A DNA stretch of 64,000 nucleotides from Isoetes taiwanensis (lineage: Eukaryota > Streptophyta > Lycopodiopsida > Isoetales > Isoetaceae): NCBI GenBank assembly GCA_021234155.1, contig JAJEKV010000071.1, forward strand, positions 6,260,236 through 6,324,235, in the 5' to 3' direction. This document shows positions 766-45,735 of this stretch, one piece after another. Position 1 is the stretch's first letter. Every line of letters begins with the position of its first letter. The translations under genes were made by a program, and so were the position numbers. Below the pieces are notes generated by a model. The model was not told the DNA's origin, did not search any database, and was given only the letters and a program-made list of their open reading frames with translations.

Positions 766-3206
766 GTGTCTTGTGTATGATGACACATTCCCTAAGCCTG
801 AAGTGCAATATCAGAGAAGCTTTCGGTGGCCTTCCTTAAGTCCTCGAATTGCTTGTACATAATGCCAATTTGATCGGAGATGAAGTGCGATTATCTCCTT
901 CTTCATATAAGCAAGAATTCTTAAGTTCTCAGGTTTTGTCTTGAAAAATTTTTCGCCTTTGTTTGTAACGAGGGTGACTTTGACGATATGTTCCCACTTA
1001 ATGTTTCTTGAGGACCTTTCGACAATCATCGTAGTTCAAGCCCCTCATGCATCTAAGGTAGTTGTCGCTAAAGTAATCTTTGTCTTTTGCCCAATTGATT
1101 ACTATCATTGGATCCAAGCAGAATTCCATGAATATGCCAAATAAAGGGCTGTGGAATTTCCACATCAGACCCACGTATAAGTTTGTGCACCCTATACAGC
1201 TGTTATACCTACATACATACATGATATACTTCAATCTATCTGGCGTAAAAATGCACGAACACCATTGCATTCACAAAAGAGAGATAAGAACAAAGGAGAT
1301 TGAAGAATAGATAAGAAAGAGAGATAAGAACAAAGGAGACCAAGAATGATAAGAATAATTTAGCACCGCAATTTCAAAAGACGAAGAGCTTTGCAACTCT
1401 CGCCAGATGCTCGAACAACGGAACTCAGCAAACTGGGTTCGCAAATTTGGTCGAAGAAGAACTACAACACAGAAGGCAGGCCTGGCTTACCACCCGAACA
1501 ACAAGATCCTCGCTTATCTTGTCTATGTAGAGTCATGTCTATCCCGAGGCCCGCCGCCAACAACAATCCTCGGAAACCATAGCCATAGCTGGAAACCGAA
1601 AGTAGCCATAGCTGGAGTAGCCAAAGCTAGGAAACCGAGTAGCCTATAGCCGGAGTAGGCATACCTAAAAACCAATCGCCACAATTCCGAGCAAAACCGG
1701 AAACAAGGGCACGTTGTTTTTATGCCCAAGCAAAATCGAAACCTCATACCGCACCTCCCCCAAAGCGAGAAACATGCTTCAAGGCCGACACGTGCATCAG
1801 ACGCCCACATCTGCATCATCGCTTACATCTCAGATCGCCTCATCGCCCATCATGCTCCTGGACGGGCCACGCCAATCGTAGAATTACCCAAGCTCCAAAA
1901 ACTACTAACAAAACCCTAACCCCCATTTTCCGCTACACCATTAACAAAAGCATTGTAAGAGATAATTTGCCAACCTTATAGCTTGACCCCTATTGTCCTT
2001 AAGCTCACCCTTCCTCCATTTATTCCACATTTGATTTAATAATGTATAAACATCATCGGCATGAAGAGCGAACCTATTTACGTGCCCTCGGAATCTTTCT
2101 CGCCATTTGAAGGTAATCTTTTGCAATAGAACTCACAATGTTAGAAGCGGGAGATGGCAAATGAAATAGCACAACGGCGCCATTTACCCACTAATATATG
2201 GCAAAACAGATATAAACATACCTTGTACTCGTCATTTCTTGACGCCCTTTTCAAATGGAGCCGGTCTTCCGCACCTCGATATTGCTTCCGCGATATGGTG
2301 GATCTGATCCGCATAAGGTTCCTTGAAGCAGTCTTGGCCACAATGTCATTGGCATCCACACTGAGCTAAAGAAGGTTCAGGTCACTAACTCTGCATATTC
2401 TAAAATTATAGATCTTCCTGAGCTCAACTCGCATCTTGTCCCCAACTTATCAGCATAAAGGCGAAAGCAGCAGGATCGAATGATTACCATTGATAATGTA
2501 GAAACGTTCCCTACGGATCAGATTCATGTGACCGGTCGGCAACACCTTTGTGTAATGGGATCAAAGGGCACCACATTTCTTCGGAGTGAACATCGGATGT
2601 GGACCTTCTCCAAAAATTTGCGTGAGCTTCCTTACATGCTCGGGATTAATAACCCTGGCGGTCATATTAGGTAGTGCCTCTTCTAGATCCCAAATGGATA
2701 TCCTCCTTGTGTATGTGACTCCAAGAGGAAATATGTGGTCCTGCTTCTGTATTTTTTTCAATGTTTCTTCTGCCATTTCCTCTTCGGCATTCCGGTCCAT
2801 CTTCAGTTCCTCGGGCACCTCAAGGTCTGCTATCTTTTGCAATTTCCTAGCCCGGTGCACTCTCTGCTGTGGAAGCTACCACTTTGTGTGTTTTGGAGCC
2901 TCCTTATTGTCACTAATAGTCCTCTTAGAATCATGCTTCCAAGTGGACTTCACAGGAGAATGATGTTGCTGCTCCTCTTGCTCATCCCTCTTCTCCTCTT
3001 GATGCTCGTCCCCCTTCGCTTCCTCCTGAGTCCGCTCTTGATCTGCCTGCCTTTGTCCTTCTTCTCCTCCTGCCTTCGTTCCTCGGGCTACTCTGGTGGC
3101 TGATTTGACCTTCACCCCCTTTCTAATCACCTCTCCCAGCATCCATCTGCTGTCCATTAGTGCTGGCATGTTGCCTGAGAGCTTCGCTCTAACAATGTAT
3201 GACATA
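766..3206 (-). pseudogene. 3' part of E0 ParB/methyltransferase-like gene (interrupted, truncated)
   Basis: Leftward coding remains, read from 3206 down. First comes a highly charged Glu/Lys/Gln linker (about 3110-2930). Next is a ParB-like region (about 2860-2465): an ISIWDLEEALPN segment, then RVINPEHVRKLTQIFGEG and, after a frame change, RFYIINGNHS, which corresponds to the ParB core box (VIAGxHR type). A segment ending in NDEYK (about 2359-2190) follows, then NQMWNKWRKGELKDN (about 2040), then KDKDYFSDNYLRCMRGL (about 1090-1030) down to about 765. From the NDEYK exon onward it is similar at nucleotide level to the rightward gene at 43.8-44.6 kb. Breaks: several frame changes, an in-frame TAG near 2367, a foreign block at about 1105-1976, and loss of everything 3' of 765. 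Its 5' part continues beyond element E1 at 20.0-21.1 kb. Function is inferred from motifs only. Confidence 0.72.
1105..1976. other. Non-coding insertion inside the E0 gene
   Basis: The coding similarity shared with 44.1-44.4 kb stops at GGTCAAGCTATA (near 1976) and resumes at about 1105, so about 0.87 kb here has no counterpart in the relative. It holds a short direct duplication (AGAGATAAGAACAAAGGAGA, about 1279-1298 and 1320-1339) but no recognisable ORF, TIR or poly-A tail. It could be a solo retroelement remnant or an unspliced intron. Confidence 0.5.
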
Positions 3207-3237
3207 TTTAGCAAATTTTAGACTTATTCAAGTCTAA
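3207..3237 (+). repeat. E1 left TIR, ending in a 20-bp palindrome
   Basis: The left terminal repeat is 3207-3231. Its inner part, extended to 3237, forms TTAGACTT-ATTC-AAGTCTAA (3218-3237). This is a perfect 8-4-8 palindrome with the same geometry as the internal palindromes of the element. The matching second arm is degenerate at the right end. Confidence 0.72.
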
Positions 3238-3967: not shown

Positions 3968-3980
3968 ATAATCCAAACTA

Positions 3981-4549
3981 CTAACTATTGTTTTTTCCAT
4001 TTTTTGATTCCAAATATTGTCTTGCTAAGCTTGCACTGATGCGTCTACCTTGAAATCCTGAGTTTAAGGCCAATAACATTGTCGCCGCATTTGACATTCT
4101 AATGTGGCCATCTGTAATTCTACGCCTTTGGAGAGCAGGTCCAACGTGTGACCTCGTATGATGAGAGTTGCTTCCTTTACTATCACTATGGTCATTATAC
4201 GTAAAATTAGTCTTCGTTTCGGATCCGTGGAGTCGATCCAACATTTTCTCTAGGTGCCCAATACTCTTGAGCATAATATAAAGATCTTGAACATCGTTTT
4301 AATCTTCTTCCCATCTTTCATGGAAAAATTCCTTCTTAAAGTTCATGGTAGTAAAAATCTTGGGTGCTTGCCACTATTACATGCTTCTTGTAAATAAGGC
4401 AATAAAACTCCTAACAAAAAGTTATCTTCCTTACTTCCAGCATATTGAAAAGGATGCAAAACAACATGCTTTGGATTTCGAAATGATTTTCTGTGATCAT
4501 CATCAACCATGATAGTGTTATGCACACCATACTCTGGATATCGTCTCCA
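3981..4549 (-). pseudogene. FCP1/NIF-type phosphatase domain, C-terminal half
   Basis: Begins W-RRYPEYGVHNTIMVDDDHRK immediately outside the Helitron terminus and continues FRNPKHVVLHPFQY and LPYLQEACNSGKHP. These match the motif III/IV region (NTLLIDDSPYK..NPP..) and C-terminal helix of plant FCP1-like phosphatases. After a frame change near 4370 and an in-frame TAA near 4300 the frame continues FFHERWEED, then NDVQDLYIMLKSIGHLEKML, to a stop at 3981. Joined to 7357 across the Helitron it gives KDLNKV|WRRYPEYG without a break in frame. Confidence 0.7.
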
Positions 4550-7356
4550 TCCTATATTATAATGTTATGTCGTAATTCCTGGATTTGGATCCAGCCCTAG
4601 ATCGGACGGCCACAGATGGCCTAACCAGATCGAAGGGTCCAAACAAAGCCCCTTTTTTTTAAATATAATCTCTTTTTTCGATGGTCCAAATGCCCTTTAT
4701 TCTGCGAAGCCCTTCCGAGTCTGACGGCCATGACCACATCAGCCTGTAAACACGTTTTTTTTTCCTTGCCCTAGCTACCGCTGTGAGCACAGCAACCCAG
4801 GCCTTGATCGATTCATGAAGTTGCCCCATGGCCGTTTTTGCTTGCAGGATTTTCCGGAGGAGAAGCAAGCGACTTCATGCCTTTTTTTAGCTTGGCTTTT
4901 CAGGATTTCTCGCCAGAGAAGCAAGTTGCTTCATGCCTGTCATTGGCTTTGAGGTAGATATTCCGGAGGAGAGACAAACTGATAATGAGGGTTCATCTCT
5001 CAAAACCTCTGTTCATGGTTCTAGAAAGCAGGATTCTGGAATGCGTGGTTTCTGGCTTCTTATTATAAGTATAAAATGGCATGATGCCATGTCCAGCACT
5101 TGGCATGGATATATTCTGCCGAAGTCTTCTACAGTGCAAGGCCTTATATTTAGCGAGATCATGTAATACAGATTCATGGCTACTATCTCTGGAACCTCGA
5201 TTGGGTATCTTCTGAATCCAGACTCCTGATTTTCGTTTGGGTTTTGTTGAAGAAAACAGTGTCGTTTCTTAGTGGGGCATTGTCTGGATAAACTGGAGTT
5301 GGGGAAGTATATGCTCCTTCGTATCTCAGAATTGCCGCTGGTGGTATAGGCTCCCTGTCTCTCAAAGGCGGAAACCACTATGTAATATTGGCCTATTGGG
5401 GTTGATCTGCAGTGACTAAGAAAGTGTATGTCTGGCTTGGATGGATCTGAGATGAGGTATTTTTAATTTGCTTTGTGTAGGATGCATCAATTTCTACCAC
5501 TGTTAGACTGTAATTTGCTATCGTGATAAAGAGATTTGGAAGCTTTTTCTTTGTTAGGTTGAAGCAACTAACGCTGCATTTTCTTATAACAAAAGCAGCA
5601 AAACAAACCAAACCAGCAAACCACCAGGCCAGCAAATCACCAGGCCAGCAAATCACCAGCAAACGTGTAGAACAGCAGCATGTGCATAGTTTTTCTTCTG
5701 CTTCGTGTGAAGGTAAATACAATCTCTTCTGGCATTATAGCATGTCGATGTAAATATGCAAAAAGTGTAGGTTCAGGGATCTTATTTAGGAGATGGAAAC
5801 TGGCCATGGAATTGTCATTAGTGTTTGGTTGATTTGCAGGTCTGTCCATCCAAAAGTGCTACAAACCAGTTATGTTGTTTCAAGAGAAATTGACGTCTAC
5901 ATTTTGCTGAATAATCCATGTTTGAACTATAAATAAAGCTATCTGAATAATCCATGTTTGAACTATAAATAAAGCTATCGGAGTTTAACTATTGTGCGTT
6001 TGCTTTCCAATTGAAATAAGTTTCTGCCTGTTGTGCTACATCAATAATGCAAACATAATAATATGCATGTGTTTTTAGGATGCACATCATTAGTGTGGGT
6101 TGCTTTGCAGGTCTGTCCATCCAAAAGCGGTACAAACCAATTGTGTTGTTTCAAAAGAAATTGACGTCTACATTAAATTGACGCCTACATTTGCTGAGTA
6201 ATTCATGTTTGAACTGGAAAAAAAAGCTATTCTGAATCTAAATCCGAAGCTGCAAATTGGGGTAAGCTTTGCTTTGCTTTTTAATTTGTTTTTGAACAGC
6301 TAAGCTAGGGCTTGAATAGGACAATTTTCTCTACTGTTGTGGTACAACATTTAACCTCTAGACGTTTCTCTTTTCAGGATTGCATCATTTAGTCTGGTTG
6401 AATACCTCATAGAAATTGCACTATGATCTTCGAAAAATAGAAGTTTGTGCGTTTGGCACAAGCCAGTCTATGTCTACTGCCACATAAGTTCAATACAAAA
6501 GAAATTCCTACTTATATCATCCAGCAAAAGGTCATGGAAGTAAAAAATTTGAGATTCCTGTAACATTATGGATATTTATGCACATCCAATAGTATTTGAA
6601 TTGTACTCTTCATTCTTTATAATACATTCCATCTTGCAGTTATTGTTAGTTCTTACAAGGCAATATAACCATGCCCGGTGTGACTCAAATGTGGATCTGA
6701 TTGTTCAGTTGGTTGCATCACTTATTGTACAGGTACTTATTGGAAGCTTGATACACTTATTGTACTTTTGGAATTCTTTATTCGATTCGAATGTTGGCTG
6801 AATTGCCAATGCAAAACCAAATTTAAGAACATTGATGGTGTTATTTGAAATGCCATGGTGAAATGGCAAAATAGAAAAGCATTATCATAGATAATAAATA
6901 ATAACACCTTACAAAATACTTTGCATGCATAAGCAACATCTGAAGTCGTATATTTTTCTTGCATGCATAAGCAACATCTGAAGTCTTATCGATTATGTAC
7001 AAAGCTTACACAAACTAAAGCGGTACAAAAATACTAATGGACTAAATTATTGCCCAAAGCTACGTGAGAGCAAAGAACCCTTGCTATGTGAGAGCAAACA
7101 ACCCTTGACATTTTAAATGTTGGGTCAACTCTAATATTATAATTTTTTGCATTTAAAAGGACATTTAAAATGTACAAGCTTGAGATCATATACCTAGGCC
7201 ACAAGGTTACATAGGAAATTGTTTCTCCTTATGCCATTACGATTGGTAAGGGCTTGAAGAGTTTGTCATGGTCTGTAATGGTTCGCTTTTATCATTGCGG
7301 CCATAATATTTACATGCCCCCAACTTATGCCCAGCAACGCTGGGCACCTTTACTAG
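4550..7356 (+). mobile_element. Non-autonomous Helitron inserted in the phosphatase exon
   Basis: Starts with TC (4550, preceded by A) and ends CTAG (7353-7356, followed by T), the expected Helitron A|T insertion. Eight bases upstream of the CTAG is a hairpin with 7-bp stem GCCCAGC-AAC-GCTGGGC (7329-7345). Removal exactly restores adjacent codons GTA and TGG of the host FCP1-like exon. No Rep/helicase is seen in 2.8 kb, so it is non-autonomous. A related 3' end is at 57620. I recognise no captured gene in it, although short ORFs exist. Confidence 0.85.
5833..6985. repeat. Internal duplications within the Helitron
   Basis: A segment of about 110 bp beginning TTTGCAGGTCTGTCCATCC occurs at 5833 and again 271 bp later at 6104. 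Each copy is followed by a motif like GAATAATCCATGTTTGAACT, which is itself doubled in the first copy (about 5909-5975). A 38-bp unit starting TTGCATGCATAAGCAACATC is tandemly repeated at 6921 and 6959. All are non-coding. Confidence 0.75.
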
Positions 7357-7700
7357 TACTTTGTTAAGATCTTTGATAAGAAATGGCCTCTTATGAAAGA
7401 GATAATCATACCCTATGTTTGTGCATTTCCTTTGACACCATAAGAATTTGAAAACTTTATCATTGGGCACAATCTTCTCCAAACAAGTCAATAAACTTGT
7501 CTCTGACATTGTTGTCCAAATTGCAACCTCTGCAAACTTTAAAAGGTGTTCGATAAAAGCAAGACAGTTCGGTCTGACTATGATTTCATGTCTATTATCT
7601 TCCTTACGAACACATTTTAATAGAACCCCATTCATATCAAGAATAATAAGATTCCTCGAGGTCTCTTGAAATGGTGGTGTTGCTTGTACAACTTCAATAT
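7357..7700 (-). pseudogene. FCP1/NIF-type phosphatase domain, N-terminal half
   Basis: Leftward exon segment starting after an AATAG acceptor. It shows NLIILDMNGVLLKC, the HAD phosphatase motif I in the plant FCP1-like form (LDxNG rather than DxDGT). It continues with RPNCLAFIEHLLKFAEVAIWTT (motif II region, Thr) and RPFLIKDLNKV. The reading frame then runs into Helitron sequence at 7356. Plant relatives continue LxKLW, then a ...NTLLIDDSP motif; the equivalent here is found on the far side of the Helitron at 4549. The altered second Asp of motif I may mean weak or no catalysis, as in many plant members. Confidence 0.72.
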
Positions 7701-8015
7701 CTATTAACAAATTAAGAGTTAATTAGTTCATTACGCAAGAACTAATTCTACGGGATATGAAAAGAGCATTTTATGATTACATTGCACTGGAAACTATATA
7801 ACAAAAAACGGTCACATTCTTGCCTTCTCAATGGCAAGAAATCTACAAAACTTATTTATGCATGATAGAGTTTATGAACATTTGGATATAACAGCGTTTG
7901 AAAATTTGTAACGTCTCTTTAATCCTTCATTGAGCCATCATCATATTCCTACGCATGCAAAAAACAATCAGTTGAAACATCGAACATATGTTCGAAGTGA
8001 TACATCATGCTTCAC

Positions 8016-10040
8016 CTAAATCAAGGCTCAAGTATGAACCATATTCATCAAGCTGAAAATCATCTAGCATTTTTTTAACCTCACAATAAGTCGTAGAGTC
8101 ATGAGCTTGAAAAGGAATTGCATTTGGCTTATGGGTATAGAAAAGATTTTCACCTGTATTTTTGTTCTCTTCCTCTTGAGCTTGCTTTGGAGAGTGCAAA
8201 CCTTCCTCTTGCAACTGTACGTCACGCTCTTCTTCTTGTGCAAGCTTTGGGGAGCACAAACCTCCCTCTTGCAACTGTACCTCATGCTCTTCTTTATCAG
8301 TATGTTCTACCTCCCTTCTCTTCCTCATGGAGTTGTACGTGATGTGTTTCTAGTTCTATGTTTTGGTCTCCAGACTTTTCCTTTTCTACATCATGTGCAT
8401 CTGCATCCTCGTCTATATCTTCAATGTTCTGTACTTGTTCTTCCTCCCCTTCCTCTTCCTCTTCATCTACATCTTCATCTTCCTGACCAAGGGAGTCATT
8501 ATCAGAATGATCTTTTGGAGATGGTGTAGAGAGAACTTGTTGTGCAGTCTGAAAATCTGTAGATGTAGATCCTGGTTCTTGGACTACATTCAGTGCACCA
8601 GAATCTACCTGTACTTTTTTTTTTCAAAATATGAAATAATGGTAATTTTGAAAATCCAGATATAATAGCTTCAATTGCAGTTTTCTGAATAGAATTATCT
8701 GTCAAGACAATTGCTTGTCTACCCAAAAGCAATGCTTCCCGAGCAACATTGCCTCCACAATTAACCTCCATAATTGTTTGGTTTGGCCTAGAAAGAGAGT
8801 CAATAGACCTAAGTATACCGTTTCGCAATATCAAACCTTTGACAATTATTCCACGTTGCAGTCCACTGGCCATTGAATAACTCATCGGCTTCCTATATAA
8901 ATCCAATTATTTGGAGTCTTCACTTTGCAAGACCGGATCATAATCTAAATCTGGGTCATCTGTCCTAAAGTAAAGTGAGCAGTTCTTGTATAATAAGGAT
9001 TCCAGTGATCCTTTTACATCCTTTGAAACACGTGCAAGAATTACAAAGGTCTTTAGGGCATGAACACCTTTCTCTGTTGTGTTAGCTTCATGGTAGCCAA
9101 AAAGAATGTGCACTTTTCCCTCAATAGCTTCTAAGGTTTCTAAGCAAACATGTATCTCATACGGTGTCAAGAAAAAGAGATATGAATATGAGCTCTGCAA
9201 ATTCAAGAAACAACGCACTGACTATAAGCAATAACATGAAAGAATAATAGTATTAGAATTAAAAGCAAAATCACAAAGTACCTCTTTATTAATATCAGCA
9301 ACCAAACTGATGATGTCTTCAAAATCTTTTTTGTTCCACCCTTCTTGCGTGTGAACTACAATTAAATCTATAGCTCTATCTTTCTCAAAAATCCTGACAT
9401 CTTTCGTCTTAGTGACCTTTGGCCCTATGCTATACACAACAACAGCTTTATGGTGCATTATAACACGACCATGATCTGTATCCCACATAGCTTCAAGCTG
9501 ATCAGTGGCAAGGCTTGGCATATTGCCACTTTTACTTTTATCCAAAACCTTTTTACACCAACTTGAGCAATAACCTCTAAGTTGCTCCCATGATGAGGAT
9601 ATTGTAGGACTCTCTGCAAATAATCTTGATAAAGTCAGAGTTTGGTCACGGGTATAGTTTCTCATGTGAGTTAGCATGCCCTTTTTCAACACCCGACATT
9701 CTTTAATCCGATCAGCATAATCTGTCACATATTCTAACTTTTGTCCTTGTCCAGTCTTCCCTTTGCTCCAAGTAATTGAGCCTTTCAACAACGCATCAGC
9801 CACATCTTCTAACTCCTTAATGGTCAATTGTTGCGTGCAACGAAATAATGATAAGTTTATGTCTTTTCCACTTCTAGCACTTCCCATATTTCCCTGTGCA
9901 TCTGGCAACTCACCTTTGTTATAGAGATCAATTGCTCTACTCCACTTATCAAATATATGCCTCACTGTCGTTAGAAGATTGTAGATCACAGAAACTGTTG
10001 CCTTCCCCCCGAATGTGACTTTTGCAATTTGGTCAAACTC
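8016..10040 (-). pseudogene. Exons 2-3 of the fusion gene: methyltransferase-like domain and acidic C-terminal repeats
   Basis: Exon 2 (10040-9282, 253 codons) ends in a beta strand AIDLIVVHTQEGW, at the place where N4/N6 DNA methyltransferases have their (D/N/S)PP(Y/F) catalytic motif. That motif is absent here. Exon 3 (from 9194) carries TPYEIHVCLETL, an in-frame TAA at 8909-8907, and then TIMEVNCGGNVAREALLLGR with QAIVLTDN. This corresponds to the C-terminal SAM-binding motif of the N6/N4 family (VLDxFxGxG...GR..vgxE). After an A10 run that shifts frame comes a Glu/Asp-rich tail with two copies of an 11-residue unit VQLQEEGLHSP. The last codons before the GTGAAG donor read SYLSLDL. Fold assignment is reasonable; enzymatic activity is doubtful. 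Confidence 0.62.
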
Positions 10041-10132
10041 CTGTATTGTGAAGATTAAAAGCCACTAAGAAACCTCAAAACATGTGGGAAAATAAAAAAT
10101 AAATCAAGACGAAATAAAAAATTAATAATCAC

Positions 10133-11649
10133 CTTAAATTCTGCACTTGTTGCCTTTCCTTGAACAGACTTTGGAGGCCATTTCATTATCTCAAATTGCG
10201 CTCTCGCTTGCTCAAACTGATCTAGAGAAGGTGAGACAAACTTATTTTTTTCATTTTTCTTGTTCGCCTCAGATGAGATTTCCATTAGCTTTAGCATTGG
10301 AGTGTCATGTGCAATGATCCTGGCCGCACGCATGCCCCACCTTTGCCTATATTCTGAGCTTTCTCCTGAAAGCAACTGCATTGCCCTCATTGAATGTTGA
10401 CCAGCAATTACTACAAACCTCGTATCTTTACTGCAAGCTTCACTCAAATTCTTTATGGAACGAGGTTGCAAAGTAATAGGATCTATAGGCAATAGATCAG
10501 CTGTCTCAGGAGTGCTAGTAGGATGTCGTAACATTTCATTCCTTAGCCATTGCATGTGACTTGGATTATACTTCCTATAGTTCCATTGGGCAAATTCCTT
10601 CGATATACTAAGGTCGGGAATGATGCAGTTATCGACATTAATCATAATAGGAAGTGGAAAACCAAATATAAAGTAATCTGAGCCCCTTTGGACTGCATCT
10701 TCAATGTTAAGCTGTTGTTTGTTCTTCTTACTCTTCGAACTCCCTGTCTCAATAACTTGCTTCCCTTTAGATGCCACATCCACAACCCTTACATCATCAT
10801 CTAACTTCTCAATAATAGCAGATCCTTCGTTTATAGAACTGGCATCAATACGTCTTCTTTTTGTTAAAGGTTTCTCCTTCCCCTCTTCTTGAGATTTCCT
10901 TTTTTTATTCACTGCATCCTCTTTGTCATTTGAGGTTTTTTCCTTCTCTGCTTCTTGAGACCTTCTTTTCTTCTTTTGTACATCATCTGTACCCTTCTCC
11001 TTCTCTCCGTCCTGTGACTTTCTAACCTTCCTTTGTGCATCATTTGTACCTTTTTCCTTTTCCCCTTCTCGAGACTTTTTATTTTTCTTTTCATCATCTT
11101 CCTTCTCTCCTTTTGAAGCATCTTTTTTCTTCTTCAATAATTTCGAACAGTTTTGAATACCGTTAGGCTTCTTATTTGCAAATTTTGCATAAACTTGAGA
11201 ACCTGTATCCTCTCTCGATAATTTGACACAAACCATACGTAGCCCATCCTTAAGATCATCATGGGAAGACAAACCAGCTGCTTTTAAATTGTTATAGCTA
11301 GACAACTTCCAACCATAACGTCTACAACTGACCTTAATTTCTTCGGTCTGTGCCATCTTAGTGATATCAAAATTTTCAAAGGACAAAGTATAACCATAGA
11401 CTTTATTATCTGTCGTATCTTCCACCAAGGCTTCAAGGACACAATTGCCATCTTCTCCGGGCACATCTTCAAGTTTTAACAATATTCCATAGATGTGTCT
11501 ATCTTCATCCAACAAGCAGACCTCATTACATGTTGTATACCCTTCTATGACTTCAAAAAACCATTTCTTCTGTAATAGATCTTGCTTCATATCATACCCT
11601 TCAAAACTAACATCTTCCAATGAGATTGCTCTGAATTTTGCATTCATAT
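10133..11649 (-). pseudogene. Exon 1 of the fusion gene: N-terminal region, basic repeats, ParB-like domain
   Basis: 505 codons, open throughout. Residues about 1-165 are a globular N-terminal region I do not recognise. Residues about 170-265 are four imperfect 20-22 residue Lys/Glu repeats around the phrase GEKEKGTDDVQKKKR, probably a nuclear-localising or nucleic-acid-contacting linker. Residues about 310-505 look ParB-like: a FPLPIMINVDNCIIPDLSI lead-in, a long alpha-rich stretch, then RFVVIAGQHSMRAMQLL, where bacterial ParB has its (V/I)xxGxHR box, followed by RWGMRAARII. The exon ends AEFK with a GTGATT donor and the next exon begins EFDQIAK, restoring frame. ParB-family boxes bind or hydrolyse CTP, or act as nucleases; activity here is not shown by the sequence. 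Confidence 0.65.
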
Positions 11650-11720
11650 CTGTAAGGAAAAAACATAGGGACAAATATTAATAAAAATTGATGCCACAAC
11701 TTAATTTTAGAAAAACGAAA

Positions 11721-13563
11721 CTTCCAACTTGTGTTGGAAGTCAATTCAACCATAAGATTACAAAACCAACTTGTGTTGGAAGTTCTACGAACATTCAAAA
11801 CCTCCAATTAAACATCAAACAAAAAATGACCTTTTAGACAATCCACCTACAATCTGGAAGATCCGTCTCAAAAATTAACTAGAGCTCTCACTAAGAAGTG
11901 TTGCACCCAACTTGTCTTGGAAGAACAAATATTAATTTTAGGAAAACGAAACTTCCAACTTGTGTTGGAAGTTCTATAAGATTCCAGTTCAACCATAAGA
12001 TTACAAAACCAACTTGTGTTGGAAGTTCTAGGAACATTCAAAACCTCCAATTCAACATCAAACAAAAAATGACCTTTTAGACAATCCACCTACAATCTGG
12101 AAGATCCTTCTCAAAAATTAACTAGAGCTCTCACTAAGAAGTGTTGCACCCAACTTGCCTTGGAAGAACTTCAAAACTCCAGTTCAACCAAAAAACTAGA
12201 AAATCAAACCTCCAACACATGTTGGAAGAAAGCAAACCTCAATTTTGTATACCTATGAACTCAACCCTAAACCTTCACAAAGATAAGGACCTCTATACAA
12301 AAAAACTTCGGATGTTGAAAAACAAGCAAAACCTCCATTTTGTATACCTAGCAACTCCATTCATAATTCATTCTAGAAGTTAATATGACCATGACTCAAA
12401 GACTTCCAACTTGTGTTGGAAGCAAACCCCAAATTTTATTCTTTGAAACCCTAACCAAATTTAAGAAGACAAAACCCAAGTTTCTAGGAACATTCAAAAC
12501 CTTCAAACAAAAGATGACCTTTTAGACAATCCAGCTATAATCTAGAAGACCTATCTCAAAAATTAGCTAGAGCTCTAGTTCAACCAGAAAGCTACAGTAC
12601 CAAACTTCCAACACATGTTGGAAGCAAGCAAACCTCAATTTTGTATACCTATCAACAAACTTCAAAAGGTTGGCCACAACAAATATATGGAAAAAAAAAA
12701 AGGGTTCAAAGTAGGTGGTGCTTCATTAAATGAACCTCACTTGGTATGAGAAGCTTACTTCCAACTTGCGTTGGAAGTTCTTTGCAACTCCAATTCAACA
12801 TCAAAAAAATGTTGGGAGGTGGTTGCTAGTTTATTAAAGTTAAGCATGACTATAAAGCTATGAAACCAAACTTCCAGCACATGTTTGAAGCTAGGTTAGA
12901 GAATCTAGTTTTAACTTCCAACTTGCGTTGGAAGTTCTTTGCAAATCCTACTCAAACCCAACAAATGTTGGTTGCTAGTTATTAAAACTATGCATAACTA
13001 TAAAGTTACAAAACCAAACTTCCAACACATGTTGGAAGCTAGCTAAGAGAATCTAATTGTTCTAACTTCATGTTGGAAGTTAGCAACAACTAAGATCTTA
13101 GAAATATTCATTTCCAAGCACATAGTGCTTCACTTGGATCTCACTTGGAATTAAAAGCTTACTTCCAACTTGTGTTGGAAGTTCTTTCCAAATCCTACTC
13201 AACCCCAACAAATGTTGGTTGCTAGTTATTAAAACTATGCATAACTATAAAGTTACAAAACCAAACTTCCAACATGTGTTGGAAGCTAGCTAAGAGAATC
13301 TAGTTTTAAACCTCAAGACATTATAATATGTAACTTCCAACTCATGTTGGAAGTTAGCAACAACTACAAAACCAAACTTCCAACACATGTTGGAAGCTAG
13401 CTAAGAGAATCTAGGTTTAAACCTCAGACATTATAATATGTAACTTCCAACTCATGTTGGAAGTTAGCAACAACTAAGATCTTAAAAATCCATTTTCAAG
13501 CACATAGTGCTTCACTTGGATCTCACTTGGAATTAAAAGTTTACTTCCAACTTGTGTTGGAAG
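11721..13563. repeat. Array of 20-bp palindromes CTTCCAAC-N4-GTTGGAAG between the divergent E1 genes
   Basis: Thirteen copies with perfect 8-bp arms start at 11721, 11952, 12403, 12605, 12758, 12915, 13019, 13162, 13266, 13334, 13377, 13444 and 13544. About six degenerate or half copies are interspersed (11766, 11906, 12009, 12149, 12211, 12871). The 4-bp spacer varies: TTGT five times, ACAT three, TTGC two, TCAT two, ATGT one. Some copies lie in longer tandem units (243-bp unit at 11828 and 12071; related units in 12750-13600), but their spacing is irregular. They lie upstream of the fusion gene, probably in its 5' intron or promoter. Arm conservation with spacer drift is what protein-binding sites show. 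Confidence 0.9.
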
Positions 13564-16626: not shown

Positions 16627-19600
16627 GAACTCTTTTACTATAGGTTCAAGAAGCTTGAAACAAATACATATTGGCATACCTATACAAAAATCAAGGCCAC
16701 TATGGCATCTCAGGTGTGTACGCCAGTAACCACTCAAAATAGGATATGTAATGTTTTATTATGACCATCATAACCGAACAGAAGTGCTACTTATACAGAG
16801 CGAGAAAGTAGAAGAAGGAATGCATGTTATGCTGGTGGCAAATGGTGCAAACATAGCCGAAGGAACAATATTCACCATGGACCCAAATAGATATTGCCAC
16901 AACCAAATATTAGGCGATGGATATGCCAGCATTTCTCTAAAGGTTGTCTATGAAAATCCGATTACTCCATCACATGATTATCTACTAGAGCACATTGGTT
17001 CTTTTGTGAGATGGAAGCAGAGCAATTTGAGACCACATTTTGGAGAAGCATCGGTGATTGAAGTTCATGCTTCTAGTTCCAAAGATACAGCATTTCCTAT
17101 AGAACATAGTCAGAAGTTCGATCGAGGTAACAGATCTACATGGCCAGGGCATACGGTCGTCGTCCTCGACAAGGAGAAAAATAAGTTGGGATTTGCTTTT
17201 ATTGTTGTGGCTTTTACAAATGAAGTTGTTGATGGTGCCTATTTAGGAGAAGATGACCTCGGGATTACGGTGTTTGAGATCGTAGTTGGTGTTAAGCCAT
17301 TCGAGATTGGAAAACTGATACGGTGGCCAATCAATAATTTAGCATTGCTCAATGGAGAATCATTGCTTAGACCAGTTCATGCAATTGATGAAAAAGATAA
17401 TAGCAACATGAATAAATACAAGCGTCCTTACCGTTTTATAAAGAGGAAGAAGGCTAAATCAATAGTGAAAGAAGTCAAGAACGATCCTTGTGATATGGAG
17501 AATATTGCTAGCGTGGCATCTATTGATTGTTGTCCAGATCATTGTTGCCAATATGCTGATAGAAAGAAAATTTTCATTGCACGAAGTGAGTATCATTCTT
17601 TAAAATTTGAAGACCAAACAACTTTTACCTATGATAGTTTGGCAGCAAGTGTGAAAGACGAAGATGGAAAATACAAGGGCATGTTATTTGATGGAAACAT
17701 TGTGTGTTGTAAAGGATGGTATACAATCTACGGAATTTGTAAGGCCACTTTTTATAATAGGAGAAATAAGTGGCTTAATGGAGCAAAAAAGGGCGTGCAT
17801 GGAAACAAACTTGTAATGCGATGTACAGAAAGGATGGAGGCTGCAAAGGTGGCACTTACACAATTGGTAGATGTTACAGCTAATCAAATGCCACACCGAA
17901 GCAGAATTACATGTGATGGAGAGAGAGATTATCAAAAGGTGATGCCGCCGACTTATAATATGAAGTCCATGTTAAAGGAAGTGAATGAATCTCTAAGCAT
18001 GCAAGGGCTACCCCACATCTCCCAATCTAGTTTTAGTCGAATGTGGAATAAGGATTTTAATGATGTCCTTGTTTCAAGAGAAAATAGCAGCTTCTCAAAA
18101 TGCGAAACATGTACAGATTTGAAGAACAAACTGGACAGCACAAAAAATCCACAAGAGAGGGAGATACTTCTTCATAAAATTGACAGACACAACATGGAGC
18201 AAAAAAGTTGTCGTAATGTTTACTATTCGTGGAGATATTTGTCTTTTGGCAGTCCACAAGAATATCTGTGTTTGATACATGATAAGATGGATCAAAAGAA
18301 GACATGCATTCCGAGACTAAGACCAAATCCAAACACTACAAAGAATGCTATGCAATTGCCTATGGCTTTAACAGGAATTCTCACTCATGGGCATGGCCCT
18401 TCTGCTTATGGCCATTTTGCCACATGGAATTGGTCATTTGACCCAAACTTTACAATAGGTTCTATTGCAAAATGTTTGTGGAGTTTAGAGGGTTTTAATG
18501 ATGGAGATAGAGGGGATTTGACTCCAACTTTTACTTCAGCAACGCAACCCCTTCATAAAGCATTGTTGACAAGAACAGATGGTAAGCAATTAGCGAGAGA
18601 AGAACATGGTGATTTTAAGCCCCTGCCAAAAGTTCTACTTTTACAGGTGGACAATTGTGTCTCTGAGAATAAAAATAGATATGTCTTGGCATACTTGGCG
18701 TTGTTAGTAGCAAGGGGACATTTCAAAGAAATATTGATGGCATTTCTTATGGTTGGGCATACACACGAAGATATTGATGCTTTCTTTAGCAGAGTTGGAG
18801 AAAGCTTAAGAATGCGACATGCTCACACTTTGCCTCAATTATTTGAAGTGTTTGAAACATGTGTATCTGCTAAAAATGTTCCATATCTCATACAAGAAGT
18901 TCCTGACTTTAAGAAATTTGTGGATGGCTATATAGAAGATGGACGCAATAAGTTGGTAGGGCATACCAAGCCATTACACTTTCGTTTTTATCTAGATGAT
19001 AAAGGAGCTCCAAAAATGCAGTATAAGGTGCACCCTAAGCAGGCATTATGGGAACCCGAAGCCGGTGTTGAACTTTTTAAAAAAGATGGAGATGTACAAA
19101 TATTACCTGAAGGTGAACCTGAGCCAGTGCCACTTACTGAACATATGAGAGAGGAGGAAAATATTATATCAGGTATTTCAAAATATATAGATTTTTGGAA
19201 AATAGGCTTGGAACGTCGTTATGGACAATCTTCCAATTATCATGAGGTAGTGAGACCAATTATTGCCTATTGGGAAAATGTTATAAAAGAGATAAAGGCA
19301 TCTCCAATAAAAAATACCAAGTTACAAGACGGATTTTGGCCCCGCTCACAATGGATGCTCCATCATGAGGCACATTTAGCTCCTACAATGATTGAATACG
19401 ACGAAGAACAGCATGAAGTGGTATATTGTGGCCCTGCAAGTGGTAAACCAAAAGAGGAATTTAAACCCGAAAAAGACATCATGGAGGGTATGTTTGTCAT
19501 TGTGAGGCCTAATGACGTGAAAGAGACTCCTTTTTGGCTAGGGGCTGCATTTACTAAACCGACTAAACACAATGACGGACAAAAAGATTGTCTTCGGATT

Positions 19601-19843
19601 CACGTTCAATGGTGGAAGCCACTCAGTAGAGGTAGCAAAACTTTGAAAGCTCAATACAAAGATTGTTGGACAAAAAAGTGGAAACCAAATCCAAGTGAAC
19701 AACGACAATGGGTAGACGTCCAATCAGTAATCTATAGTTGGAAAGCAAAATCCTCTGCTGTTTCTATGAAATGTCTTCAAGCGATACCTGAAGATGTTGT
19801 TGCAATTGTTCAAAATCATTTGGAATTATGTACTGCTGAGTGA
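16239..19843 (+). CDS. DUF8039-like + DUF7869 protein, probable transposase of E1
   Basis: Proposed exons 16239-16258, 16644-16713 and 16799-19843 (GT-AG introns, phases consistent) give 1,044 residues; a start at 16751 in the large exon would give 1,030. Residues about 37-105 and 145-215 are two modules of the DUF8039 type (ANGANIAEGTIF...LGDGYASISLKV...IGSFVRWK; then LGEDDLG...IGKLIRWP). From about 274 comes a Cys-rich start (CCPDHCC), GWYTIYGICKATFYNRRNKW, and a CETC knuckle near 465. Then follows the DUF7869 domain: D525/D528 in HDKMDQKK, LTHGHGPSAYGHF near 558, D648 in LQVDNCVSENKNRY, and GHTHEDID at 683-690. These acidic positions fit an RNase H-like transposase core; that is family inference. 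A short 5' exon beginning at an acceptor at 16216 precedes the ATG. Unlike every other large gene here, the main exon has no stop or frameshift, so this copy could be recent or active. Confidence 0.85.
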
Positions 19844-20000: not shown

Positions 20001-20025
20001 TTGAATAAGTCTAATTTTTCCTAAA
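20001..20025 (-). repeat. E1 right TIR
   Basis: Reverse complement starts TTTAGG, A/T-rich, then TTAGACTTATTCAA, matching 3207-3231 with three mismatches. It is followed by TA (20026-20027), the duplicated target also found at 3205-3206. Confidence 0.72.
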
Positions 20026-21131
20026 TAAGTGGGACACAGAGTTTTTGACATGTCCATAGCTGCTCACAGAAGAATACCAAATCCCCAGGGATCTCTACCG
20101 TGCCTTTGATATCTGCTTGCTTCTTGGGACTCATATGATGGCAGCGGCCACCCTTTTTTTTTTTGGCCGACAAAGGCACGGTTCTTTATGTTGGACTCCC
20201 ATCATTGTCGGTCGTAAGCTTCGCCATTCCATACAATAGAGATCAATGCTAGCATTGACGGGGATCCTCCATGTGCGACCAAGAAAGTCAAGTCTTCCCC
20301 GCTTCTCGACTTCCCTCATGTTTACTATGATGCCCATCCGGGGCCATAAATTCCTCTCTCACCTCACCAAAGACGGGACTTGACAACAAGGCAAAGCTCT
20401 CGCCTTTTGTCGCCCTTTGTTGGGTCCACCGACTTCCCCAAAGGTATGGCTATAACAATCTCCATGAACCAAGACACGCCGACCGGGACGAGGGGTCTTT
20501 GATGTAACTACATTTTGTGCCTTGGTAGCAACTGGCTTCTAAGATAAACATGGTAAGAAAATGGCATGTATCCACTTAGCACGATGATTAACGTGATATA
20601 TGAAATGGGCAAGTCGCCATTTGAAGAAAATAAAAGACGTCGCCATTTGAAAATGCCTCTCTAATCTTAATGAGGTGCATGAGTTGCGCCATTTCCTATT
20701 CATGCACCTCATTAAGACCGAGAGGAGACTTCGTAGGCATCCTCGAGATGGCACACAAGCCATTTACATGAAATGGTGCACCTCGCCATCTCGAGGATGC
20801 CTTCATCAGTCTCCTTGTCTAATGAGTGCATGGAGGAAATAAGCCAATATGCACCTCATTAGACCAAAGGGAGATTTCGTAGGCATCCTCGAAATGGCAC
20901 AGATGCGTCATTTCATATAGCTACGGCTACTTAAGTTAAACCTCCTAAATACCGAGGTCACGCTATTTCTATATGGAAGGGGTGGCCACGGCTTGACCAC
21001 GCACTCCATGATATAGAAATGGCGTGTCCAAGCACCATTATAGTAGCCTATGCTAGTCTAAAAAGATAAGAATCAAACAAGAGAGAGACTAACCCGAGCG
21101 GCTCACGGATTTTCAGCGAAGATTGCGCCAT
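20026..21131 (-). pseudogene. 5' part of the E0 ParB/methyltransferase-like gene
   Basis: Leftward. Exon 1 (21131-21094) reads MAQSSLKIREPLG with a GTTAGT donor and is nearly identical to the first exon of the E2 gene at 43585. After a region with hairpins and frame changes (including an A11 run near 20155-20165), an open segment runs IKGTVEIPGDLVFFCEQLW...KLCVPL straight into E1. It continues in frame at 3206 as MSYIVRAKLSGNMPALMDSRW. The gene is therefore split by E1 into pieces 17 kb apart. The N-terminal sequence has no domain I recognise. Confidence 0.62.
20669..20801. repeat. Two perfect hairpins in the E0 5' intron
   Basis: Arms AATGAGGTGCATGA (20669-20682) and its complement (20700-20713), with the loop containing TTGCGCCATTT. 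Then 17-bp arms GGCATCCTCGAGATGGC (20736-20752) and complement (20785-20801). Similar sequence recurs unpaired near 20855-20900. Degenerate AATRGCGC-type palindromes are also nearby (20948-20967; 21018-21039). Confidence 0.75.
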
Positions 21132-38768: not shown

Positions 38769-41700
38769 TTAAGATGAACAATGTGCTATGTCTTTCCACA
38801 TGTCTACAATATATTTCGGAATTTGGATTGTTTTCGGCCTCTTGCCATTGGCATCCCAAGCATAATGAATAGCATCTAAATTCTCGTACCTTGAAGGATC
38901 GGAAGGATTAGGCCGCCAACGCTTAGTTAAGGTCCTTGTAGTCCCCTCCAAAGGCTTCCACCGGGATACAAAAATATGGCCAAAATATGTAGATTCGGAT
39001 CAAAAACGGCATTCTCCCTGCATATCCTAACCAAGTGGCGGTGTTATCATCTCAGGTCGACTAGAACAAACATGCCCTTTGTCACATATGCGTGAGGATC
39101 AAACTCTTCAAGAGGCAACACTGGGCGGCCATCGGCGGGCCACAATATGATGGTAAAGGTCGGCGTGACCAAAGGCGAATCGCCGACCTCGGAACAAATC
39201 TTTGTTTGTTCTAGAGGAGCTTGTCTTGTTTGTGGCCAAAATGCATCATTTTGAGGGCGTCCCGAGCAACATCCTCCAAAGAGATAAGAAGTCTGGTTCC
39301 AATACTCAACACTTGCCGGTGTATTGCCTTGCAAACAAGCTACTTTCTTGATTCTTACATATGTCCTTCCATAGGGGAGATGTATTTGTTGATGCTATCC
39401 TTCAACCCCGGAAGATCCTTCAATGTTGGTCTAGGAGGAATATTTTGTGGCACACCACTTGGTAGCATTGGCTGACCATGTTCATCCTCTTTCCACATTC
39501 TAACTCACGGAGAATCTGGCTGGAAGCCACTCTTTATGTGTAGGACGATGTTGTATTGCATAACGGGCCAATCTCCGCCATCTTAAATTTGAAGAGCAAT
39601 GGTTCAAGTATGTCCAACTAGCGTTGGCCCTTATCGGGGATGAATCCCTTCACAAAAGCCTTCCAATTTGGAACTTCATCAATAAAGTATGGAATTGGAG
39701 ATTTTGCATTGCACTTATTTGAACAAGTAAAGTAGCTCGGTAGTGTCAAAGCATCCAGATGAACTCATCAAGGTTGAAAAATTTCCAAATAAAGCATCAA
39801 TATCATCATGGGTGTGGCCGACCATCATAAAGCCCACTTGGATCTCATCAAAGACCTTAAGCCAAGTCAAATAAGATAAGTATGAAAAGACATACCTATT
39901 TTTGTTTTGCCTTACGATGCATTATCAAGTTGCAAGTAGAGATTGGGGGAGAGGGTTGAACACCTCGGGATTCGTTGTAGTTGAAGCATTTGGCAATACT
40001 TACGCCATAGAAGCATGTTTGTTCTTCAAAGGATTGGTATCCTTGATTTGCTTGCATCCATTTGCAATCTGCGGGCTTACTTCCACATAAGTCACCTATC
40101 TTGTCCTCTTGTACCAATTCCAAGTTATGCAATATCCTAGAAAGTGAACCAATGTGGAAGTTTGAATCATCTTTCCATAAATCAAGTGAGAAATGACCAT
40201 AGGCACGACCACCATGCCCATGAGTGAGCTCTGTCAAAACGCTCTTCAAGCGATCACCTCTCCATACAGATTTTGCTAGATGATGACTTTCTAGGCACTA
40301 AAGTCTTAACCCGATCCATCTTATCATGTATTATACATAGATGATTTTCGGACACCGATGTGACAATGCTCTCAATGCCAATATTGACTTCTGCAAGAGC
40401 GTTGCTCTAGCATATGAGCCCGGCGTTGAATTGCAAGATTTCGATCTCTCTCTTGTATCTTTTGTTTTTCCAGCTTTTGCTTAATTACCACTTGCCAGAT
40501 GTTGCATTTAGAGAAGGCTGTATTTTTGCAATGCTAACATCACGGAAATTCTCTTTTCCATATACTATAAAAAGAGTTCAAGGCTACAGATGTTCCTGTA
40601 AGCTCTTCAACCACAGCACCAACTTCTTTATATATAAGCTTCTTATTAAGAATGGAAGGAAGCTTGCGTACATTTTCTCTCACATCATCTCTACCTCTTT
40701 TGCTCCTATGGGGAATATTTTCAGCATTCTCTGAATGAATGAATCCTTCTAGCACACATTCGGTGTGGCCAATGTAGAAGATCTAGGCTAAGAGCCAGTA
40801 TTACCATGTTCAGCTACCTTTCCACCTGCTTCAAATCTATTTCTCCAATTGTAAAATGTTGTTGGTGATACCTAAAGCCATGCGCCAACCAGCCAGACAG
40901 AATTCCATCCCCTTGAGCACTATCCTGTCCTCTCCTTCTCCTGTGTAAGTCACACTCAGCACGTCAAAAAAATATGTAACCCTTGCATTGTATGGTTGGG
41001 ATAAAAATTCTTTTCTTAATTCACATACTTGATGCTTGGTAAGTTTCTTGTTGCAAGTATTTTTGCAGCAGCTTGACTTCATAAACTTGTTGATGGAACT
41101 TGTGGAGCATAGCCTTTCATCTTTGGTCTTTCCCTTGGGCTCTCTTGGAATTCTTTTTGTGTAAGTATACTTCCTTTTTCGTTTGAATTGAGCCTGAATG
41201 TTATCCTCGAATGATTCTAGCTCTATATCCTCATTTTCTTTAGCTTCTCGAGCTTGCAGATGTTGTGAGACAGTCCTTCCATCCTGCAGCACCACATCGC
41301 TATTTTCCCATTGTACAAGTGCATTTTCTGCTGGCCTTTCTGCACAAGCATGACATTTGAGATCCTCTGTAATTAGTGCAGGAAAGACCTTTCCCACACA
41401 GAGGCCCACCTTTGAGTCTCCTAAAAATTCATCGTCAACAGCATCCTGGGGATCACTAAAGAGAATTATGGCCTCTGCATATTTACTTCTGTCACATGCA
41501 TGAAGAATGTGGCAATGCTTATCCAAGAGATCTGTTCTTGAGAAACTAGCTGGTGGTTCATCATCATCTGATGCTATTCTGCGAGGAAATCGAGTAGCTA
41601 GATCCACTGTAGGATCAATTTCTTCATCTGCATCTTACACTGCCTCTACAGATTCTATATTCGAGGTCAGTGGTGGAGTAGCTAAATCAATGGCATTCCA

Positions 41701-41919
41701 TCTTATATCCTGCCGAGGCCATTCGATATACGTCCCCACAGCCTCTTCAATGTTGTCCGCACTAGCACATGGAATCGGAAGGATGTGGGTAGGCACTACA
41801 GCCTCGGTAACTTGCACTGCTACGTTGAGTGCGTCAACATTCTTCCCATGGATGGAAGTTCTATTCACCCAGACACCCTTACCAACCACAGTATTATTAC
41901 TGACAAGGTTCACCACCAT
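38769..41919 (-). pseudogene. DUF8039-like + DUF7869 transposase-like pseudogene of E2
   Basis: Leftward and collinear with the E1 protein. NNTVVGKGVWVNRTSIHG...VGTYIEWPRQDI (41919-41635) is DUF8039-like. After one in-frame TAA the frame continues to LKGMEFCLAGWRMALGI and a Cys cluster CCKNTCNKKLTKHQVC (to 40837). A 1-nt shift then gives TFYNWRNRFEAGGK, and another frame KLPSILNKKLIYKEVG...YSIWKREFP (40755-40540). Then LTHGHGGRAYGHFSLDLW (40249-39896). Finally WNQTSYLFGG...AFWPQTR and the C-terminus WRPNPSDPSRYENLDAIHYAWDA (38951-38769). At least one nonsense codon and several frameshifts; dead. Protein-level similarity to E1 is clear, nucleotide similarity is low, so the two elements are old relatives. 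Confidence 0.75.
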
Positions 41920-42417
41920 ATTCTACGTCTTTAGCGTCTTTGTTTGAAGGAGCGGGCGTCGAATCGAAGTCGATGATGTTGTGGAGGGACTACTAGGCAA
42001 GTTGGGGGTTTCGATTATCGAGGCGTTCCGATGACACGGGTGAGGCGGTTTCCACAGTATTTTACTTGATTTGAGGCCATTCGATAAATGTCCCCACGGC
42101 TTGGCAATGTTATCGCTCCCTCACTGCGGAATGGGAAGCACATGGGTGGGCACTATGGCTTCGGTGACCTCCGACCACATTGCACCATGGAATGTTCTGC
42201 GCCATGCGAGATGGCCTCTATGCAATTCATGTCCCCCCGGCAGCTACCACATCCCCATCGACAAGCCACGCGGGGCCTTTTCTGTAAGAATCAATACACA
42301 TACATACTTGTTAAAGACATGCAACCCTCCATGACATATGCATAGTAAAAATAGTTGAAAATTTGAAAGAAATTAGGCGACATGGGACAAATGGCGCGGT
42401 ATTTGCTCCATTTTTTA

Positions 42418-42600
42418 AATGGCTAGTCGGCGCCATTTACCTTTAAATAAGCGCGCAGGTAGCGCCATTTAATTTTACAACAAATGGGCCATTTTCCTTT
42501 GCCGGGTAAAGTGGGGGGCTTGCATTTTTATCGAACGCGGAAAATTTGCGCCATTTAAAGCAAAATGGCCATTTACCTGGCAAAGGAAAATGGCCCGTTT
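42418..42600. repeat. Palindromes and inverted repeat in the E2 intergenic region
   Basis: AATGGCTA-GTCG-GCGCCATT (42418-42437) is a degenerate 8-4-8 palindrome. A 22-bp inverted repeat pairs 42482-42503 (AAATGGGCCATTTTCCTTTG...) with 42579-42600, one mismatch. Several GCGCCATTT half-sites lie between. Confidence 0.75.
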
Positions 42601-42963
42601 ACACGTACATGGCATCTTTAATCTAAATGCTATATCTAATGTTATGGTATCTTATTACTACAAGATTCAGCAATCAAAGAAAATGTACCCTTTAAGACAT
42701 CAATTGTTGAGAACTTATCTACTGACGCAAAATAGAGAAGATGTACCCTTCAAAAACTTAATCTGTTTAGAATTATGGTCAACGAGCAACACACTGAAAA
42801 GAATTCTCAGTAAATACACAACATTAACCTATACAATCTACCATCTCCAGATCCATCCTACATCAACTACAGTGGGAGTACATATTTAACATACTAAAAC
42901 TGCATAGCCTCTAACCTGGAGGTCATTGAGGATTCCGGATCTGCCATCAAGATTGAATGCGCC

Positions 42964-43110
42964 TCAAGATTGAAGACGAGCGCCTGAAGAATGAGGACGA
43001 GCGCCTGAAGAAGGAAGACGAGCGCCTGAAGAAGGAAGAATGCGCCTGAAGAAGGAAGACAAGCGGCCAAGTGAGAAAGCAAGCGGCCAAGTGGGAAAGA
43101 CAAGCGGCTA
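42964..43110 (+). repeat. 21-24 bp minisatellite, readable as DERLKKE heptads
   Basis: About four units of GAAGACGAGCGCCTGAAGAAG followed by three units of AAGCGGCCAAGTGGGAAAG. In one rightward frame the first part reads (EDERLKK)n, a coiled-coil-like heptad repeat, then TGA. It may be a decayed coding repeat or a simple minisatellite; position is 0.5 kb upstream of the MTase-like gene. Confidence 0.8.
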
Positions 43111-43584
43111 AGTGAGCGGGAAATTCAAATTGCAAATTCAAAAGTCAAAAGGGCTGGGGGGCCGGGAAATTTGAAGAGACGACGGGCAAGCGGATTTATG
43201 AGGGGGAAAATTCAAATTTTGAAATTTGAATTTGATTTGACGGCGGGGAGGGGGGGCGGGAAAATTTAAATTTTACGAAATTTGGAGCCTGATTTGGCGG
43301 GGCGGAGGGGGCGGGCAAATTCCGGCGGCGGGTGAAAGTGAAAGCCCGTGGAGTTTATCTTTTTCTTTTCCCTCCACTTTTCATTTCATTACTTTTGCGC
43401 CAGCGCCTCTGCCTCCCACCTTCGCCTTCCTCCAGCGCCCAGCGCCTTCCGCCTGTTCTCTCTCTAGCGCCTGTTTGATTCAAACATTTTCTCTCTCTAG
43501 CGCCTGTTGATCGGGGGCGTTAGGAAAAAAAAAGTGGGTGACTTTTATCACGGTCCAGTACTTTTATCTTTGTCTACGAATACA
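43111..43584 (+). promoter_or_regulatory. Putative 5' region of the E2 MTase-like gene
   Basis: Shares AAATTCAAATTTTGAAATTTG blocks, GGCGG spacers and CTCTCTCTAGCGCCTG runs with the minus strand at 21600-21190, upstream of the E0 gene. The shared block ends in the identical start TACAATGGCGCAATCTTCGCT. Promoter function is inferred from position and conservation only. Confidence 0.5.
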
Positions 43585-45639: not shown

Positions 45640-45735
45640 AAAAATTGTATCTCCATATGAAAAATTGTATACAAATTGTATTTTTGTTAATATATAACTA
45701 CATGGACTTGTGTATAAAATGTGTTCTCTATAGGG

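Follow-up and report, generated by a model that had tools for sequence, protein, structure and literature searches.

A DNA transposon of Isoetes taiwanensis with a ParB-like and methyltransferase-like accessory gene, a following FCP1/NIF exon and arrays of its own palindromes

Element A and its accessory gene

A stretch of 64,000 nucleotides from the lycophyte Isoetes taiwanensis (assembly GCA_021234155.1, contig JAJEKV010000071.1, positions 6,260,236 to 6,324,235 of the forward strand), hereafter the window, was analysed. It contains a DNA transposon, element A, at about 3199-20027, which carries a broken copy of a leftward accessory gene with a ParB-like domain, a methyltransferase-like domain and a following exon of the FCP1/NIF type; a diverged relative, element B, and a remnant, element C, lie in the same window (Table 1). 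An original prediction made from the letters alone had described a ParB, methyltransferase and FCP1 fusion at 3981-11649. That interval was incomplete, as it falls inside the element. The exons, the boxes and their recurring order, which is not due to chance, stood, whereas the last splice donor, the assignment of NIF to separate exons and the extent had to be revised.

The order recurs in copies from the same genome. A search of the 1.66-Gb genome with exon 2 reported 157 matches. Ten close copies of 20 kb each were fetched (c1 to c10), namely the nine best after the window's own plus c10, with an intervening match (on C1110) left out; four distant copies were also fetched, two of an m family (m1 and m2; about 41-43% identity in exon 2) and two of a d family (d1 and d2; 28-31%). 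N-terminus, ParB-like domain, middle domain, methyltransferase-like domain, acidic tail and FCP1/NIF exon follow one another in this order. The FCP1 exon was reached in seven of the ten close copies (c1, c3, c5, c7, c8, c9 and c10) and stands at the same place in all four distant ones. Since c2 ends within the methylase-like part, c4 ends early in the tail, and c6 is interrupted after exon 2 with its remainder outside the fetched stretch, no fetched copy is known that has the gene end and lacks FCP1. Homologues ending before FCP1 had been named as evidence that would speak against the fusion; instead, FCP1 was present in all 11 fetched relatives that extend to its position. A ParB box can be read in m2 and d1; the ParB core of m1 is lost, and exon 1 of d2 is homologous to that of d1 and frame-broken at the box.

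Constraint was estimated from medians of the ratio of nonsynonymous to synonymous substitutions (dN/dS), each taken over 6 to 54 pairs from 5 to 11 close copies per domain, with stops skipped. The values were 0.15 for the N-terminus, 0.13 for ParB, 0.18 for exon 2, 0.13 for the segment A3 and 0.12 for the methyltransferase-like domain; the first part of NIF gave 0.26 (0.08-0.14 against the m family). Many single copies carry stops, as expected for old transposons, and two of the eight copies tested (c3 and c10) have no stop in exon 3 between A3 and the tail end.

The window gene itself is disrupted. GT..AG sites, all in phase 0, link its exons at 11647-10133, 10040-9282 and 9194-8910, and the third then runs into an in-frame TAA (8907-8909), followed by two frame breaks and a stop at 8005; the Rossmann-like motif MEVNCGGNVAREALLLGR is read downstream of this TAA in an unchanged frame. 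Both halves of the FCP1 domain that had been predicted were recovered with PF03031, not as two exons but as one exon split by a 2.8-kb insertion, and they are contiguous in the three relatives aligned (c1, c3 and c7). Inside the insertion there is an imperfect tandem duplication (5815-5948 and 6087-6237).

The termini of the element begin with ATGACRTATTTAG, which has 254 + 288 = 542 matches in the genome (≤3 mismatches) and 0 + 0 in the backward control. As these outnumber the reported exon 2 matches, short non-autonomous relatives are likely to be present (C1029, C1026 and others). All four copies read at both ends are flanked by perfect 4-bp duplications, AATT, TTTT, GCAT and TAGA (c1, c3, c5 and c10). 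A 9-bp duplication (6/9 matching) was considered and rejected, since in the copies the terminal inverted repeat (TIR) begins six bases further out (ATGACR) and the duplications are of 4 bp. The gene divergent from the accessory gene encodes a DUF7869 protein, presumed to be the transposase. Of the seven close copies with the FCP1 exon, five have an A-type DUF7869 gene upstream in divergent orientation, a count limited to close copies because the m and d stretches are too short upstream; none was found within 9.9 kb in c9, and c8 has distant DUF7869 matches only. Its median dN/dS was 0.14, in a set including a c4 match with eight stops. The Sola superfamily, which makes 4-bp duplications, was considered as a candidate assignment for this gene. 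Membership of KDZ/Zisupton is not indicated by the 4-bp duplications, those of Zisupton being 8 bp (PMC12730594).

Table 1 Features of elements A, B and C in window positions
Feature	Position	Strand	Remarks
Left TIR, element A	3199..3231	+	starts ATGACA+TATTTAG; 24/27 match with right arm, E=3e-4; same terminus in copies
8-4-8 palindrome TTAGACTT-ATTC-AAGTCTAA	3218-3237		overlaps left TIR
C-terminal extension	3984..4298	-	shares open frame with NIF in m family
FCP1/NIF exon, second part (MVDDD motif)	4346..4550	-	PF03031 E=5e-4, 20.2 bits, cut-off 21.8 (match 4564-4346)
2.8-kb insertion within FCP1 exon	4551..7356	-	edges ±3 bases; absent from c1, c3, c7
FCP1/NIF exon, first part (DMNG motif)	7357..7700	-	PF03031 E=4e-11 (match 7722-7240)
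Segment translated only with last intron kept	8005..8153	-	ends at stop kept in 8/8 copies; dN/dS 0.62
Accessory exon 3 to conserved donor CAG/GTGAAAAT: rest of methyltransferase-like domain, acidic tail	8154..9194	-	
Accessory exon 2: conserved middle domain, then expected motif IV region	9282..10040	-	dN/dS 0.18
Accessory exon 1: ParB-like domain (VIAGQHS) after conserved N-terminus and basic repeat region	10133..11647	-	dN/dS 0.13-0.15
Intergenic array, 19 palindromes CTTCCAAC-N4-GTTGGAAG	11721..13563		further sites 7978, 16119, 16611
Divergent DUF7869 (PF25273) gene, presumed transposase	16730..19840	+	E=7e-49, 166 bits, cut-off 26
Right TIR, element A	20001..20027	-	outermost bases and duplication not preserved in window copy
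Element C remnant, B-type, left of A	776..3204	-	other part 20028-21219
Element B, second diverged element	38790..45841		DUF7869-like gene 41952-38790 (-), E=1.6e-46; ParB/methyltransferase-like gene 43585-45639 (+)

Domains of the accessory protein and splicing of the FCP1 exon

The predicted VIAGQHS box was found in exon 1 and aligns in register with phage ParB proteins. A ParB profile was made from 59 phage regions, comprising Gordonia phage Nubi gp84 and its IMG/VR relatives; all ten members tested match PF02195 (E 0.074 to 6.5e-8, three above cut-off), and Nubi gp84 itself gave no PF02195 match at E≤0.01. When hidden Markov models (HMMs) were compared with each other, the element's VIAGQHS was set on the phage VIAG box. 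Rows of A and C scored 30.1, which none of 500 column shuffles reached, and A-type rows with m2, d1 and C scored 31.3 (hhalign; 0/200). The ParB rows were at chance against the phage methylase profile (64/200) and the methyltransferase rows near chance against the ParB profile (15/200). With A and m rows alone the ParB score of 20.3 ranked first among ten domain sets, the second being 16.6. When hmmsearch was used to run the ParB profile against A, B and C, with 2,000 shuffles for each, no real signal emerged: the A region was reached by 17/209 reported shuffles and C by 101/169. A clear ParB signal was obtained only by HMM-HMM comparison. These results indicate that a ParB/Srx-like domain is present, from a profile match in the correct register with the VIAG box. 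The A and C regions are homologous to each other (z=7.9, 0/2000 shuffles), with some freedom of choice in C, which was read across frame breaks. ParB CTPases carry a CTP-binding arginine of the GxxR type in this box. The element lacks it: G-Q-H-S is invariant in the aligned rows of A, c3, m2 and d1, and C reads GNHS.

The methyltransferase-like domain is the weakest of the domain assignments. The predicted S-adenosylmethionine-binding type of motif stood in so far as the Rossmann-like MEVNCGGNVAREALLLGR is in frame, but the methyltransferase signal was weak and no Pfam hit was obtained. Profile searches, which the original prediction had proposed as a check, thus recovered ParB by HMM-HMM comparison and by no curated model, and left the methyltransferase weak: 5/500 and 3/200 shuffles reached the score against the phage methylase profile. 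Modification of adenine or cytosine, also suggested at the outset, is not supported, because the aligned rows of A, m, d and B, the four families compared, contain no DPPY-type motif IV; motif I is degenerate as well. The motif I region of the B copy, searched against phages (E≤10), matched methylase genes at 9 of 12 places, in five different genes and all at E≥1, EmiRose being counted through PF01555 in one of its two records; the remaining places were two replication initiators and one unannotated. The reversed B sequence found nothing in phages, and the A motif region matched one place only, which was unrelated. In hmmsearch with the phage methylase profile, B3 was reached by 0/125 shuffles and B_mt by 7/220, and the A region was unreported. 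The assignment is carried by the homology among A, B and d (z=8.3, 13.4 and 5.1). A pseudo-methyltransferase is the best reading; another Rossmann-like fold is also possible.

The FCP1 module is clear in the relatives, where PF03031 was matched over nearly its full length (E=4e-21 and 1.6e-17; m2 75.8 bits, d1 64.1 bits, cut-off 21.8). FCP1/NIF phosphatases have the motif DXDX(T/V) with both aspartates. Like these enzymes, the element encodes a near-complete NIF domain in which the first Asp and the T/S, K and DD motifs are kept; unlike them, it has DXNG for DXDX, Asn replacing the second aspartate (D-M/L-N-G in six of six aligned rows), and is encoded behind a transposon gene to which it may be spliced.

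The predicted donor TTAG/GTGAAG (slash, splice junction) did not hold up, as it was present in only three of eight aligned copies. The conserved donor is CAG/GTGAAAAT, between window positions 8154 and 8153 and 138 bases upstream of the former; it was intact in 6/8 copies, c1 and c5 deviating immediately before its GT, and both m copies have CAG/GTGATAAT. This donor is in phase with a conserved acceptor, TAG/AT, and in the d family GTATCG and CTTACAG may form a phase-2 pair. The stop just beyond TTAG/GTGAAG is conserved in 8/8 copies, and the segment leading to it appears relaxed (dN/dS 0.62). We infer from these features that the last intron may be alternatively retained, yielding one short product and one that includes FCP1.

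Palindrome arrays and neighbouring elements

The palindrome CTTCCAAC-N4-GTTGGAAG has 22 matches in the window (≤3 mismatches) against 0.25 expected by chance, with a dominant spacer of 4. None of 151 A-type sites in six A-type copies falls in an exon, a figure that excludes c2, c4, c5, c6 and c8 (0 to 5 sites apiece). Conservation was 1.75 bits in the arms, 1.10 in the spacer and 0.57 in the flanks, the sites having been selected on their arms, and many sites lie in duplicated blocks and are therefore not independent. The palindrome at the left TIR has the geometry of the arrays and a different arm sequence. The m family carries the A motif, and AAATCGCGCC-W-GGCGCGATTT occurs in the d family, mostly within presumed introns. 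These arrays make it plausible that the accessory protein recognises the DNA of its own element.

Element B has the same divergent gene pair, an accessory protein homologous to that of A (shuffling test z=8.3, 0/300) and a palindrome of its own, AATRGCGC-N4-GCGCYATT, with 10 matches (0.39 expected), of which B holds seven and C three. No match lies in a stretch recognised as coding; the introns of B are our reading, and the C sites 20893 and 20948 are of unclear status. Termini of B at 38682/45699 were not accepted (E=0.79). Because C flanks A on both sides in the same orientation, element A is probably nested in C.

Elsewhere in the window, an open reading frame with YADD (35391-35750) presumably belongs to a reverse transcriptase of the long interspersed nuclear element type, judging by the motif, and one with WSDGCSSQWK (28610-28942), which had no Pfam hit, we take to resemble another plant transposon-type protein. 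A tandem duplication of about 220 bases, 95% identical, lies at 50047-50481.

A possible self-targeting regulator, its rivals and known systems

We favour, at a probability of roughly one half, the reading that the accessory protein is a self-targeting, palindrome-binding regulator of its DNA transposon, like VANC in its working and made of other parts. The full-length product would consist of the ParB-like domain, the middle domain, a catalytically degenerate N6/N4-type methyltransferase domain, the acidic tail and, once the short last intron is spliced, the FCP1/NIF-type domain. Its ParB/pseudo-methylase part would bind, probably as a dimer, the 20-21-bp palindromes of its own family that lie in promoter and introns, and so mark the element, at which the acidic tail and the FCP1 module might act on the transcription machinery or chromatin. 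The element would thereby avoid silencing or regulate itself, and splicing would yield two forms, without and with FCP1. Anti-silencing or self-regulation is favoured because of this self-recognising anatomy and the precedents of VANC, TET/JBP and DNMT genes, and a transposition cofactor is the main rival.

Several observations weigh against this regulator. Its ParB domain had no significant match in sequence searches of Pfam, PHROGs, NCBIfam or the PDB, and the box is changed in c7 (DQHS) and c9 (GQYS). The methyltransferase gave no specific signal with A and m rows alone (10.3, below NIF2 at 19.0), and single-sequence AlphaFold models were useless (predicted local distance difference test scores of 31.7 and 32.8). 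The second part of NIF (dN/dS 0.55; 0.15-0.22 against m) and the C-terminus (0.51) are less constrained, family B in the window shows no FCP1, and the fused ParB/methyltransferase-FCP1 protein is a prediction from the genes. An in-frame ATG stands at the NIF exon start in six of eight A-type copies, so that a separate cistron is possible. Finally, the palindromes could be bound by the DUF7869 protein.

The accessory protein may instead be a transposition factor that binds the palindromes and the TIR and assembles the transposase complex, for which the second proteins of CACTA and Harbinger elements offer a comparison. The overlap of the left TIR with an 8-4-8 palindrome of array geometry and the joint presence of accessory and DUF7869 genes in five of seven copies speak for such a factor, but the arrays are internal, in promoter and introns and not subterminal, and the arms of the TIR palindrome are unlike the array motif; we consider it a tentative alternative of some weight. 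It is unlikely that the element makes ParB/methyltransferase and FCP1 separately, as proteins encoded by two cistrons or transcripts: the stop kept after the tail and the ATG just mentioned would fit this, but the gap is only about 290-310 bases, donor and acceptor are conserved in compatible phase in the A and m families, and the d1 NIF frame has no ATG ahead of its catalytic motif.

Other readings appeared weaker. We find it rather doubtful that the system works like ParB-parS, in which a ParB-derived protein would load at the element-specific palindromes, spread along the element and recruit a phosphatase of the FCP1 type to RNA polymerase II or chromatin, sustaining expression of the element, while each family evolved its protein and its palindrome together. 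An active DNA N6-adenine or N4-cytosine methyltransferase marking the element would accord with the weak B-family matches (E 1 to 10) in phage DNA methylases, but is improbable given the missing DPPY-type motif and the degenerate motif I. Gene capture is common in plant transposons, and FCP1 could be a host fragment taken up by chance in one copy; this is hardly credible and already contradicted, as 11 fetched copies from three families all have FCP1 at this position and its first part is under purifying selection.

Homologues were sought beyond this genome. None was found in a large protein collection, where one search scored the 7,996 candidates with most shared words, nor in viral or GTDB contigs; as the plant content of these collections is uncertain, the result tells little for other plants. 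The accessory protein minus its methylase motif I part had no match in phages, and its ParB part no tblastn match at E≤10. A PDB sequence search gave no NIF, DUF7869 or ParB match and a few weak unrelated ones. Literature searches found no description of this architecture and none on DUF7869. The same domain order in homologues, for which a search had originally been proposed, is accordingly documented within the I. taiwanensis genome.

If the favoured regulator is real, plant transposons would have a second means, of independent construction, to identify and handle their own DNA, and this one would be assembled from phage-type parts and a phosphatase. Since each family has its own palindrome and its own protein, specificity should be swappable and measurable. 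The data also suggest that strong purifying selection acts on a pseudo-methyltransferase carried by a mobile element.

Among known systems, VANDAL elements have 9-bp duplications, and element A does not appear to belong to them: its duplications were of 4 bp in 4/4 copies, and no DUF1985 was found in a Pfam search at E≤1. Gordonia phage Nubi gp84 and its relatives combine ParB_N and then N6_N4_Mtase in one protein, in the order seen here and with ParB aligning in register; the element differs in its eukaryotic introns, long middle domain, GQHS box, lack of DPPY and added FCP1 exon. In Arabidopsis, the VANC proteins of VANDAL elements are anti-silencing proteins, and family-specific short motifs occur there at high density in non-coding tandem repeats (PMC5735166). 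Element A resembles this system as a DNA transposon with an accessory protein, dense family-specific noncoding motifs and repeat-rich variable protein regions (PMC5735166), whereas its 20-21-bp palindromes, ParB/methyltransferase/FCP1 domains, DUF7869 gene and 4-bp duplications set it apart. Fungal transposons carrying TET/JBP genes (PMC12730594) and retrotransposons of dinoflagellates and charophytes carrying DNMTs (PMC5890265) are likewise transposons with genes for epigenetic enzymes; their enzymes are other ones, whereas the enzyme-like domain of element A seems to be dead and is accompanied by an array of DNA sites.

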